Of a stretch of DNA of 64,000 bases, positions 3,797 to 17,748 are shown one piece after another. The notes below the pieces were generated by a model, which searched no databases, was not told the DNA's origin, and saw only the letters and a list, made by a program, of their open reading frames with translations. A program made the translations under genes and the position numbers. This DNA is from Ignisphaera aggregans DSM 17230 (GTDB lineage: Archaea; Thermoproteota; Thermoprotei_A; Sulfolobales; Ignisphaeraceae), in assembly GCA_000145985.1 (NCBI GenBank), contig CP002098.1, positions 1,344,501 through 1,408,500 of the forward strand, given 5' to 3'. The stretch's first letter is position 1, and the number at the start of each line of letters is the position of its first letter.

Positions 3797-4777
3797 CTAT
3801 TCCTTACCTAGAATCTGGCGAACCGTTTTTCTAACTGCTTGTGCTGATGTCATTGATGGTGTCCAGCCAAGGCTTTTAAGTTTCCTAATATCTAAAAGCA
3901 TAAGCTTTACATCCCCTGGCCAACCTCTTCCATCTCTTGTCGTTAGTTTATATATATATTCAACATTTTTAAGATTCATCTCCTCTACAACGATATCTGC
4001 GATTTCCTTAACTGTTATCCAATCTTCATTACCGACATTAAATATCTCATAATCCTTTAGCGCTCCATACAACTTGGTTGTTAGAAACATGGTGGCATCT
4101 ACAGCATCATATACATGGAGATAACTTTTCCTTTGGGTACCATCGCCAAGTATTTCAAGTTTTGTTGGATCTTTTTTAAGCTTATTTATAAAATCTATGA
4201 TGACGCCGTGGTTACTTCTAGGACCTATAATATTTGCATATCGAAGTATGAGGCTTTTTAACCCATATAACTTTGAATACGTTATATAGAGAACTTCTGC
4301 ACAGAGCTTAGCTCCACCATAAACTGATATAGGCTCTAGTGGATGATAATCTTCAGGTGTGGGTATAATTTTTGCATCTCCATATACTGTTGAACTACTT
4401 GCAAATACACCTATTTTCACATCATATATTCTTGATGCTTCAAGAACATTAAATGTTGCAAGTATATTTTCATTGAAATGAATCTCAGGATTAACAACCG
4501 AAAGTCTAACCTCAGGGTTTGCTGCCATATGTATAACAAGATCAGCCTCCCTAAAGCTTCTAGTCCATAGCTCGTCAAATTTCTTAAGATCTGCATTTAT
4601 AAATTCAAAATATTCTTGTCCTATATGGCTAGAGATATTGTTTAAAGAACCACTACTAAGATTATCTATGACAACAACTTTTGCAGATAATCTATGATTC
4701 ACTATATAATCTACAATATGACTACCAATAAAACCTGCTCCACCAGTTACAATAACCTTATTAAATAGATAATTCAT
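3797..4777 (-). CDS. NAD-dependent nucleotide-sugar epimerase (GalE-like)
   Basis: Extended short-chain dehydrogenase, probably a UDP-sugar 4-epimerase or dehydratase supplying sugars for glycosylation. It has the Rossmann motif TGGAGFIGSHIVD near residue 11, DNLSSG for the cofactor ribose, HMAANPEV, and the catalytic YGGAK (YxxxK) near residue 153 preceded by SSSTVYG. Length (326 aa) is normal. The substrate-binding half is present but the exact sugar cannot be read. The 5' end abuts a possible minus-strand C/D box RNA (see 4772-4832), and the same GAGGGG may serve as its ribosome binding site. Confidence 0.85.
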   Translation of the reverse strand: MNYLFNKVIVTGGAGFIGSHIVDYIVNHRLSAKVVVIDNLSSGSLNNISSHIGQEYFEFINADLKKFDELWTRSFREADLVIHMAANPEVRLSVVNPEIHFNENILATFNVLEASRIYDVKIGVFASSSTVYGDAKIIPTPEDYHPLEPISVYGGAKLCAEVLYITYSKLYGLKSLILRYANIIGPRSNHGVIIDFINKLKKDPTKLEILGDGTQRKSYLHVYDAVDATMFLTTKLYGALKDYEIFNVGNEDWITVKEIADIVVEEMNLKNVEYIYKLTTRDGRGWPGDVKLMLLDIRKLKSLGWTPSMTSAQAVRKTVRQILGKE

Positions 4778-12070: not shown

Positions 12071-12078
12071 ATTTATAG
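12071..12078 (+). promoter_or_regulatory. TATA box for C/D sRNA at 12101
   Basis: ATTTATAG lies about 25 bases before the inferred 5' end of the guide RNA, the standard archaeal box A distance. Confidence 0.45.
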
Positions 12079-12100: not shown

Positions 12101-12155
12101 GGAATGATGTTATGTAGCAAATCTGATATGTGATGAAGGGCTCATATCTGATACA
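12101..12155 (+). ncRNA. C/D box guide sRNA
   Basis: Directs 2'-O-methylation with L7Ae, Nop5 and fibrillarin. All boxes are visible: C ATGATGT (12104-12110), 12-nt guide TATGTAGCAAAT, D' CTGA (12123-12126), 3-nt spacer, C' GTGATGA (12130-12136), 11-nt guide AGGGCTCATAT, D CTGA (12148-12151). The only departure is the last base of C. The spacings are those of compact archaeal sRNAs. It lies just past the 3' end of the HIT gene on the opposite strand. I could not assign targets. Confidence 0.8.
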
Positions 12156-12158
12156 ATT

Positions 12159-12665
12159 TTATGTCATTGAGTTCTCTATACATTTTCTAAGCTTATTCCA
12201 TGTGGTATTCAAATCTTCAGGTATTACCTTAGAAAATGCTATTGTGGGCATGAAATTTGTATCTCCAATCCACCTAGGGACTATATGTATATGTACATGA
12301 TGTTCTATACCTGCACCTGCTGCTTTACCAATATTTGAACCTATATTAAAGCCATGAGGATTGTAACACAATCTAATTGCTTTAATAACTAAGGTTATAG
12401 TTTTCATAAGATCTAACAGCTCTTCATCATTAAGCAGTTCTATACTTGGAACATGTCTTATTGGTGCCACCATTACATGTCCATTGTTATAAGGATAACG
12501 GTTTAACATTGCTATACTATATTTACTTCTATATATAACATAATTCGTTTGTTCATCATTATTTACAGCATTACAAAATATACAGTATTTATCATTATTA
12601 TTCTTCGCTACATAAGAGGATCTCCAAGGCGCCCATAGGAGTTCATATGGCATCTTCTTACCCAT
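12159..12665 (-). CDS. HIT family nucleotide hydrolase/transferase
   Basis: Histidine-triad protein acting on dinucleoside polyphosphates or AMP-linked substrates. The N-terminus LLWAPWRSSYV followed by CIFC is the AP4A phosphorylase/FHIT-like form with zinc cysteines, GHVMVAPIRHVPS is mid-protein, and the catalytic triad HVHIHIVPRW lies near residue 122. Length (168 aa) is normal. The start may be either the first ATG or the one four codons later. Substrate is not determinable. Confidence 0.85.
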   Translation of the reverse strand: MGKKMPYELLWAPWRSSYVAKNNNDKYCIFCNAVNNDEQTNYVIYRSKYSIAMLNRYPYNNGHVMVAPIRHVPSIELLNDEELLDLMKTITLVIKAIRLCYNPHGFNIGSNIGKAAGAGIEHHVHIHIVPRWIGDTNFMPTIAFSKVIPEDLNTTWNKLRKCIENSMT

Positions 12666-14725: not shown

Positions 14726-14734
14726 CTTTAAAAT
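14726..14734 (+). promoter_or_regulatory. TATA box of thrS
   Basis: CTTTAAAAT, about 31 bases before a start near 14757. The gene's ribosome binding site GAGGT (14761-14765) follows. Confidence 0.45.
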
Positions 14735-14773: not shown

Positions 14774-16627
14774 ATGAAATTACTAACAATACATGCTAAA
14801 GAATTTATGTTTAAACCTACTGAAAGAGCATTAGATATATTTGATGAGCCTATAACAAGTGAAAGATATGAAAATGTACTAGTAGCTTTCATAACGGTAG
14901 AGGAAGATGATGAGAAGGATATAGATGGAGTTGTAACTCAGGCAGTAAATGAAATAATTGACATATATAAGAAGGTGGGTGCAAGAGGAATAGTTATCTA
15001 TCCTTATGCACATCTCTCCTCTTCTCTTGCAGCACCATCTGTTGCAAAGGAAATAGTATCTAAGGTTTATGAAGTTTTAAAGAATGAAGGTTTTAATGTT
15101 GTTAAAGCACCTTTTGGATGGTATAAAGAATTTGAGCTTCACTGTTATGGTCATCCTCTAAGTGAGCTTTCTAGAACTATTCGTCCTACTATAAGAGAGA
15201 GGAGAAGAACTATAGAGAAAAAGTATTATATTTTGACACCTGATGGAAATATCTATAAACCTGGGGAGTTCGAGTTTAGTAATGAAAATATAGAGCTAAA
15301 GATATTGGTTGATAAAGAAGTCTTTAAAAAGGAGATTGAAGGAGGTCAAGGAAAGGTTTTACAATATCTTAAGAAATTTGGATTTGAATGGGAAGAATTA
15401 TCAGATCATGGTCATATGAGATATGAACCACATGCCACTGTTATACTTGAAGCAGTTATGCAGTACTCTTGGATTGTTGCAAATTCTCTTAATATTCCCG
15501 TATTTAGGGTAAAAGGAACTAATATGTTTAATGTCAATGCAGAGGCAGTTAAGCAACATGCAGAACTCTTTGGTGAAAGGATGTATGAGGTAAGGATTGA
15601 TAATGATAGATATATTCTAAGATTTGCTGCATGTTATCAGCAATTCTCTATATTAAAGGATTGGGTTCTAAGCTATAGAGATCTTCCAATGGGTATGTTT
15701 GAAATAGCTGATAGTTATAGATATGAACAGAGGGGGGAACTTGTATTAGGATTCAGATTAAGGAGATTCCATATGCCAGATCTACATATTTTAACTAAGG
15801 ATCTTGAAGAAGCAAAGCGTATAGCTATGATCGTAAGGAACAAGATAGTTGAGGAGGCTAGGAAAATTGGACGTGAATATCAGGCTATATACAATATAAC
15901 TGAAGATTTCTTTAATACTAATTTTGAGTACATAGTCGAACTTGTGAGAGCTGAAGGCAAGCCTGTGTTGGTTGTACTCTATCCTCCAGGACTTTATTAC
16001 TGGGTTATAAATGTTGAGTATATCATAATAGATGAGTTGAAAAGACCTCGAGAGATAGCTACATGGCAAATAGATGTTGGAAATGCCAAGAGATTTGGTA
16101 TAAAATATGTAGATGAAAATGGTGTTGAAAGGCATCCCATAATAATTCACACTGCTATACTAGGTTCTGTAGAGAGATATATATACATGGTCTTTGATAC
16201 TGTAGCTCGTAGCGAAAGCGAAAATAAACCACCTACATTACCATTATGGTTGTCACCCATACAAGTCAGGGTAATTCCCATATCTAAGGAAACACTAACA
16301 TATGCTATAAATGTGGCTAAAGAGCTTAGTAGGCATGGAATTAGAGTAGATATTGATGATAGAGATGAAAGTCTTGGTAAGAAAATAAGAGATGCAGGTA
16401 TAGAATGGATACCATATGTTATAGTTATTGGTGAAAGAGAGATGAAGACGGGTACTATCAATGTGAGAATTAGGAAGGATGGTATACAAAGAGTTATGCA
16501 TATTGATGAATTCATAAAGCTTATTAACGAGGAATTAAATGGATATCCTAGGATTGAATCATCTCTACCCATGTTTTTAAGCAAAAGGCCAAGACTCTAT
16601 TATCTACAGCCTACAACTCAAAGCTAA
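14774..16627 (+). CDS. thrS: Threonyl-tRNA synthetase, archaeal type with editing domain
   Basis: Charges tRNA-Thr. The first 140 residues form the archaeal N2 editing domain, related to D-aminoacyl-tRNA deacylase (MKLLTIHAKEF, VIYPYAHLSSSLA, KAPFGWYKEF). The class II core has motif 2 region ADSYRYEQRGELVLGFRLRR, zinc-site Cys (RFAACYQQF) and His (MPDLHI, IIIHTAILG), and motif 3 around LGSVERYIYMVFD. An anticodon-binding domain completes 617 aa. Editing and aminoacylation are in one chain, unlike some crenarchaea that split them into two genes. Confidence 0.95.
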   Translation: MKLLTIHAKEFMFKPTERALDIFDEPITSERYENVLVAFITVEEDDEKDIDGVVTQAVNEIIDIYKKVGARGIVIYPYAHLSSSLAAPSVAKEIVSKVYEVLKNEGFNVVKAPFGWYKEFELHCYGHPLSELSRTIRPTIRERRRTIEKKYYILTPDGNIYKPGEFEFSNENIELKILVDKEVFKKEIEGGQGKVLQYLKKFGFEWEELSDHGHMRYEPHATVILEAVMQYSWIVANSLNIPVFRVKGTNMFNVNAEAVKQHAELFGERMYEVRIDNDRYILRFAACYQQFSILKDWVLSYRDLPMGMFEIADSYRYEQRGELVLGFRLRRFHMPDLHILTKDLEEAKRIAMIVRNKIVEEARKIGREYQAIYNITEDFFNTNFEYIVELVRAEGKPVLVVLYPPGLYYWVINVEYIIIDELKRPREIATWQIDVGNAKRFGIKYVDENGVERHPIIIHTAILGSVERYIYMVFDTVARSESENKPPTLPLWLSPIQVRVIPISKETLTYAINVAKELSRHGIRVDIDDRDESLGKKIRDAGIEWIPYVIVIGEREMKTGTINVRIRKDGIQRVMHIDEFIKLINEELNGYPRIESSLPMFLSKRPRLYYLQPTTQS

Positions 16628-16639
16628 GGTAAAAAAATA

Positions 16640-16697
16640 CAATGATGATCTGTCGCCCAGACTGAGAAGGGGATGATGTAATGAACCTCCTCTGAGT
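16640..16697 (+). ncRNA. C/D box guide sRNA between thrS and mevalonate kinase
   Basis: C box ATGATGA (16642-16648), 13-nt guide TCTGTCGCCCAGA, D' CTGA (16662-16665), 7-nt spacer, C' ATGATGT (16673-16679), 12-nt guide AATGAACCTCCT, D CTGA (16692-16695). The RNA fills the 68-nt gap after thrS, and its D box directly precedes a GTG that could start the mevalonate kinase. No own TATA box is clear, so it may be processed from a thrS-mvk transcript. Targets not identified. Confidence 0.8.
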
Positions 16698-16704
16698 GAG
16701 TCAA

Positions 16705-17748
16705 ATGGATGAAATTATAGTTTCCATCCCAACAAAGGTTACACTATTTGGTGAACATGCTGTTGTCTATGGAAAACCAGCTATAGCTACAACAATCCCC
16801 GTATTCATAGAGATTAGTGGGGTGCTGATAAGAGAACCAGTATTGACGATAAATATGAGAAATCCTATACATATGTATATAGAGAGTATCTCTATAGACA
16901 GAACAACTAATAAATTAAATGTTTCTACAGATAGAAAACATGTTGAACAGTTGATTAGGTATATGGTTACCGCTTTAGAAATTTGCGAAGATGATCTTAA
17001 AACAGATAAGAGGTATGGCTATGTAATAAATATAAATAGTGATTTACCTCCAGGTATAGGTTTAGGAACCTCAGCTGCAATATCTGTAGGTACAATAACA
17101 TTATGTGAACTTCTTAATAATGGTATGACCATAGATTCTATAGAGAAGTCAAAGGAAAGAATTGCTTATTTAGCATGGAAAACAGAACAGAGAGTTCAAG
17201 GAATGGCAAGCCCTATGGACACCTTTACAATTACCTTTGGAGGACTAAGATATATAGATCCAACTACTCTACAAGCAAAACCTATAGATATCAATAAAGA
17301 GATTAACATTCTTGTAGGAGCTACAGAGAGAAAATATACAACAGCAGAATTAGTAAGGAGAGTGAGAATGTTAAAAGAGAAGAATCCGTTATTAATAGAC
17401 TCCATAATGAGTGGTATAGGGTATGTAGTTTCTGAGGCTTATAAGGCATTAATAGACGGTGATTGGGATTATCTAGGAATGCTTATGAATATAAATCACG
17501 GTTTTCTTGAAGCACTTGGCATAGTAGATGAGAAGCATAGCAATATTATTCATATTCTTAGAAAGATGGGAGCTCTGGGTGCAAAAACTAGTGGTGCCGG
17601 TGGTGGGGGAGCATTTATAGCACTTGCAAGGAGTTATGAGGATCTCAACACTATAGAGCTAGTTGCTAAAGCATTGGGAGCCCACGTTGTAGCTAAGAAA
17701 ATACATAGAGATGGTGTTACAGCAAGGGTTTCAAAGGGAGTGGTCTAG
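16705..17748 (+). CDS. mvk: Mevalonate kinase
   Basis: GHMP kinase phosphorylating mevalonate, the first ATP step of the isoprenoid pathway feeding archaeal lipids. It has IPTKVTLFGEHAVVYGKPA at the N-terminus, the ATP loop DLPPGIGLGTSAAIS near residue 115, QGMASPMDTFT, and the C-terminal TSGAGGGGAFIAL. The ATG at 16705 gives the normal N-terminus, while GTG at 16696 would add three residues and touch the D box of the upstream guide RNA. No other mevalonate-pathway gene is adjacent; lipid genes occur at 24-26 kb. Confidence 0.95.
   Translation: MDEIIVSIPTKVTLFGEHAVVYGKPAIATTIPVFIEISGVLIREPVLTINMRNPIHMYIESISIDRTTNKLNVSTDRKHVEQLIRYMVTALEICEDDLKTDKRYGYVININSDLPPGIGLGTSAAISVGTITLCELLNNGMTIDSIEKSKERIAYLAWKTEQRVQGMASPMDTFTITFGGLRYIDPTTLQAKPIDINKEINILVGATERKYTTAELVRRVRMLKEKNPLLIDSIMSGIGYVVSEAYKALIDGDWDYLGMLMNINHGFLEALGIVDEKHSNIIHILRKMGALGAKTSGAGGGGAFIALARSYEDLNTIELVAKALGAHVVAKKIHRDGVTARVSKGVV

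Follow-up and report, generated by a model that had tools for sequence, protein, structure and literature searches.

A predicted double-guide C/D box sRNA gene beside thrS in Ignisphaera aggregans and related archaea

The window analysed here, a 64,000-nucleotide stretch of the Ignisphaera aggregans DSM 17230 genome, appears to encode a C/D box sRNA of ~58–65 nt with two guides at the 3′ end of thrS. In our preferred reading, to which we give a probability of roughly 80%, this sRNA would be cotranscribed with thrS, trimmed from the transcript and used to guide two 16S rRNA methylations, with the mevalonate kinase gene mvk simply following. The RNA would represent a new family of C/D sRNAs, undetected by Rfam, for which targets are predicted.

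Boxes, guides and conservation of the sRNA

All four boxes, proposed in a preliminary description of this DNA together with guides of 13 and 12 nt, are in place on the forward strand. The C box ATGATGA (16642–16648), in which TGATG is unvarying across 14 sequences, is followed by the 13-nt D′ guide TCTGTCGCCCAGA (16649–16661), the D′ box CTGA (16662–16665, identified from the sequence and the alignment of relatives), the C′ box ATGATGT (16673–16679, a one-base variant of the C box RUGAUGA), the 12-nt D guide AATGAACCTCCT (16680–16691) and the D box CTGA (16692–16695, invariant among relatives). Flanking the boxes, UAC (16638–16640) forms the 5′ strand of a terminal k-turn stem of 3 bp with GUG (16696–16698).

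The strict C-D′-C′-D pattern occurs twice in the window (starting at 12104 and 16642) and in none of 100 first-order Markov shuffles. Across 14 relatives, 62% of the terminal stem cells are paired, compared with 45% in shuffles (10 of 500 shuffles reach 62%), and pairing is lower in every slid control; the stem has only three pairs and is weak in several of the 14 sequences. Scanning Rfam 15 returned no family at gathering score for the RNA at 16642–16695, and in a permissive scan of 16550–16800 all 14 sub-threshold matches were to C/D box families, mostly starting at 16638, the best being sR11 (24 bits) and snoPyro_CD (22 bits) over 16638–16698. Single-sequence folding of 16632–16704 indicated ordinary stability (z 0.17), a measure uninformative for C/D RNAs, from which unusual folding stability is not expected.

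Relatives were gathered by an mvk protein search of 60 related genomes. The same boxes and guides were found upstream of mvk in 15 of 16 genomes of family f1, window genome counted; in the exception (G001) the sRNA lies on another contig (L091), one f1 genome (L015) carries it on the opposite strand, and another (G016, locus L007) has an altered D′ guide. Pairwise identity across 13 family loci is 84% in the C-box/D′ guide part and 87% in the C′-to-D part, with 28% in each 30-nt flank. On these alignments, what is under selection is the RNA itself and not simply a leader. A profile built from 14 family sequences recovered strong copies in 17 of 18 f1 genomes (window genome counted; incomplete genomes G013 and G017 left out), consisting of 16 matches and the G001 copy on another contig, and also located the sRNA in families f2 and f4; sequence 3′ of thrS-type genes yielded additional copies in family f8. 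Drift of the D′ guide is seen in G016 and f8 and in some of the f2 and f4 copies.

These data bear directly on the reading that box motifs match by chance within a leader from which no RNA is produced. The failure to reach any Rfam gathering score fits that reading, but it is already contradicted because only the boxes and guides are conserved, whichever strand they are on and across several gene contexts, and because the pattern is absent from all 100 shuffles; we regard it as extremely improbable. The sequence tests applied for membership of the archaeal C/D box sRNAs (boxes, k-turn stem, guides and conservation) were all positive, and we take 16642–16695 to be a genuine archaeal C/D box guide RNA unseen by Rfam, a strongly supported confirmation of what the preliminary description had proposed.

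Other C/D-like sequences were also observed. The second strict match in the window (12104–12151, forward strand), itself a candidate C/D box sRNA, reads ATGATGT-TATGTAGCAAAT-CTGA-TAT-GTGATGA-AGGGCTCATAT-CTGA, runs towards the 3′ end of the reverse-strand ORF 12159–12665 and has a D′ guide that forms ten Watson–Crick pairs and one G·U with 23S rRNA (L036, reverse-strand position 4155); TTTATA at 12072–12077, 26 nt upstream, may be its own promoter. In family f9, three loci (L113, L116 and L118) share GTGATGAGACCACGGG..TTGA...GATGAGA..ACCTG downstream of the thrS-type gene region, resembling another conserved C/D box sRNA. Matches elsewhere to the GAACCTCC and GCACCTCC patterns of the D guide were set aside, as most were without C and C′ boxes. 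Possible C′/D halves occur among them in G053, G051 and G032, and a possible D guide copy in G053 (L229), CGTGAACCTCC before CCTGA with ATGATGA upstream, is on the same contig as a thrS-type gene but apart from it.

Predicted targets in 16S rRNA and tRNA-Asn

Because N masking covers the 16S and part of the 23S rRNA in the window genome (L035, 5502–10501), 16S targets were read in complete operons of three same-genus genomes; in the readable rRNA of the window genome, the guide sites found were only weak. In rRNA, the D′ guide fits best at 16S GGGCGACAG, to which the guide core CTGTCGCCC is complementary over nine contiguous Watson–Crick pairs. The D guide pairs with 16S AGGAGGUGCAU (best rRNA site AGGAGGUGCAUG), with 7 + 3 pairs and one internal A·G mismatch at G1053. 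The two sites are 54 nt apart. Either guide alone could match rRNA equally well by chance, with 29% of shuffled guides reaching the D′ score and 14% the D score, which counts against a 16S assignment; both scores were reached within 80 nt of each other in only 2 of 1,500 shuffled guide pairs, which speaks in its favour.

By alignment with Escherichia coli 16S, the D guide covers 1046–1056, and the fifth-base rule gives a predicted Gm1050; the D′ site lies near 986–995, where the numbering is approximate. Both sites are invariant in relatives with readable 16S, bar one D′-site substitution in G025, where the site reads GGGAGACAG and no sRNA copy was detected. The D guide retains the A·G mismatch at G1053 in nearly all relatives, and in G018 and G038 it reads ATGCACCTCC, which complements the 16S site perfectly. 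The retained mismatch is unneeded by a pure 16S guide and also counts against the 16S assignment.

On sequence evidence, 16S methylation is the most likely function of the sRNA. L7Ae, Nop5 and fibrillarin would bind its k-turn and k-loop, and genes for these sRNP proteins are expected in such archaea. The D′ guide would direct 2′-O-methylation within 16S GGGGGCGACAG, near E. coli 986–995, and the D guide 2′-O-methylation at G1050 in helix 34; the D guide may act on the T-arm of tRNA-Asn as well.

This last prospect rests on the pairing of the D guide with the T-arm GGAGGUUCR (GGAGGUUCG) of tRNA-Asn(GUU), in which eight pairs and a U·G form without mismatch and Gm52 is predicted; in 16S, the second base of GAACCTCC, an A (the third A-side base from the core), faces G1053 as the mismatch. 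No convincing tRNA target of the D′ guide was found in the tRNAs of 30 loci. It is possible, though we hold it tentatively, that this T-arm is the main target of the D guide and that the 16S fit is secondary or due to chance. The GAACCTCC segment does not vary among 14 family sequences and pairs mismatch-free with GGAGGUUC, the base that follows it is T or C and always pairable with R57, and the relatives with a GAACCTCC guide in full C/D context behind thrS or mvk have the GGAGGUUCR T-arm, while the congeners G018 and G038, with the guide GCACCTCC, have tRNA-Asn GGGGGUUCG instead. Against this, the D′ guide points to 16S, only 54 nt from the D site, the G018 and G038 guide is perfect for 16S and the switch is one event in one genus, tRNA-Asn with GGAGGUUC is also present in family f6, where no full copy was detected, and tRNA-directed sRNAs of Pyrobaculum have an empty second guide (PMC7994747).

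The co-occurrence of the GAACCTCC guide with the GGAGGUUCR T-arm and of the GCACCTCC guide with GGGGGUUCG is also the pattern expected if a single guide served both RNAs. Under such dual use, one D guide would serve G52 of tRNA-Asn and G1050 of 16S helix 34, beside the decoding site, with the 16S mismatch kept to fit the tRNA and the gene staying adjacent, in four families, to thrS or the editing paralogue; we consider this composite rather unlikely. The sRNA nonetheless offers a testable case of whether one guide can serve both tRNA and rRNA.

Gene neighbourhood and the start of mvk

Upstream of the sRNA, thrS (14774–16627, forward strand) encodes an archaeal-type threonine–tRNA ligase of 617 aa (NCBIfam NF003068, 851 bits; cut-off 484) and ends 14 nt before box C. 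TTTAAA at 14727–14732 (forward strand), a pattern match ~42 nt upstream of the thrS ATG, is a candidate TATA element of the thrS transcript. With this short gap, and because no forward-strand TTTAWA occurs between the matches at 15323–15328 and 17614–17619, a single thrS–sRNA–mvk transcript is the simplest reading and a probable one.

The lasting neighbour of the sRNA appears to be thrS or its editing paralogue, across f1, f2, f4 and f8, because other families keep the sRNA behind one of these genes without mvk and on either strand. In f2 (L093, L097 and L098) and f8 (L135, L137 and L138), the sRNA, or at least its C′/D half, lies just 3′ of a ThrRS-type gene on the same strand; this gene matches the ends, not the catalytic middle, of ThrRS and is presumably the editing paralogue. 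Two f4 loci (L099 and L100) and L015 of f1 have the sRNA just behind a full thrS on the opposite strand; in f4, G030 and G040 carry it at a different location. Mvk is absent from the sRNA locus in f2, f4 and f8 and follows only in f1, and in two genomes of family f11, G027 (L126) and G037 (L128), a ThrRS-type paralogue is directly followed by mvk with no sRNA between them. Linkage to mvk as the driver of sRNA conservation was rejected, given the families that keep the sRNA without mvk. The guide RNA gene has kept its place next to thrS through changes of strand and of downstream gene, a notable long-lived attachment.

Most archaeal C/D genes are without promoters of their own, and their flanking sequence is dispensable for maturation (PMC7994747); the strand changes of the sRNA among relatives are in keeping with this. 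In the lineage of the window, the sRNA gene would be transcribed together with thrS (and mvk) and the sRNA trimmed out of the precursor transcript. Trimming may shorten the mvk leader: excision would separate mvk from thrS and leave the mvk 5′ end near-leaderless, or mvk would rely on read-through. The expected consequence for mvk expression is a side effect at most.

The mvk gene (16705–17748, forward strand; TIGR00549, 213.5 bits when read from 16696; cut-off 163.05) probably starts at ATG 16705 (MDEIIVS...), 9 nt downstream of box D. The relative best aligned at the N-terminus (L003) reads MDEVTVKVPTK against MDEIIVSIPTK from this ATG and has no in-frame mvk start closer to its D box. The preliminary description had the D box touch the mvk start at GTG 16696; that GTG does directly follow CTGA, but it is a start assigned mechanically, as the earliest start codon in frame. 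It more likely belongs to the mvk leader and supplies the 3′ strand of the terminal stem of the k-turn, and the conserved start lies 9 nt further on. Among relatives, the likely mvk start is 3 to about 51 nt past box D, a spacing that is not conserved. In four of them (L005, L006, L016 and L017), box D continues directly into a Shine–Dalgarno-like GAGG(T/G), 3–9 nt before an mvk ATG. The functions of sRNA and mvk start region do overlap in these relatives, though not as a conserved rule, and the proximity of box D to the mvk start is a matter of packing specific to the lineage, for which archaeal precedents have been described.

It had further been suggested that the sRNA could control mvk translation. 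As a dual-purpose RNA, it would do so through assembly of the C/D particle on the thrS–mvk transcript or through its excision from it, for example with L7Ae hiding the ribosome-binding site. The sRNA takes up almost all of the 77 nt that separate the thrS stop codon from ATG 16705, the promoter-like motif TTTAWA is missing from the forward strand between 15328 and 17614, and the GAGG(T/G) abutting box D in the four relatives named above would suit such a role; a leader k-turn bound by L7Ae represses translation in Sulfolobus (PMC5539422), and a C/D gene overlapping a 5′ end lowered reporter expression (Tripp 2017, as cited in PMC7994747). Comparison speaks against it, through the variable spacing between D box and mvk, the reversed strand in L015, the separate contig in L091, the sRNA loci of f2, f4 and f8 in which mvk is absent, and the adjacency of thrS paralogue and mvk in G027 and G037 without an sRNA. 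The conserved overlap of a k-turn with the ribosome-binding site or start that would mark an L7Ae-controlled leader was not found, and the conservation needed for a regulatory link to mvk is missing. Control of mvk in the lineage of the window is possible, unsupported by the comparison and, in our judgement, improbable; we prefer the guide RNA of thrS context that mvk simply follows.

Comparison with known systems

The sRNA shares the C-D′-C′-D order, 12–13-nt guides, a k-turn stem and two 16S targets within 100 nt with archaeal C/D box sRNAs (the sR families of Sulfolobus, Pyrobaculum and Pyrococcus), and double guides with targets within 100 nt are described as usual in archaea (Lui 2018, as cited in PMC7994747). 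It differs in its two guides, for which no Rfam 15 family reaches the gathering score.

Overlap with ORF ends also has precedents. According to the summary of Tripp 2017 in PMC7994747, 25% of C/D sRNA genes overlap the 3′ end of an ORF, almost half of those with the stop codon in box C, and 7% overlap a 5′ end, frequently with the start codon located within a guide or 3′ of box D. Likewise, box C contains the thrS stop codon in L009, L010, L011 and L016, and in L008 the last base of this codon is the first of box C. Relative to the overlaps as summarised there, the present case differs in that placement behind thrS is kept across at least four families and in both orientations.

For control of mvk, the L7Ae leader model of Sulfolobus acidocaldarius (PMC5539422) would be the closest precedent. 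The two are alike in having a k-turn near a start region that L7Ae could bind; there, a simple k-turn sits in the l7ae leader, whereas here the element is a full guide RNA and any control of mvk is hypothetical.
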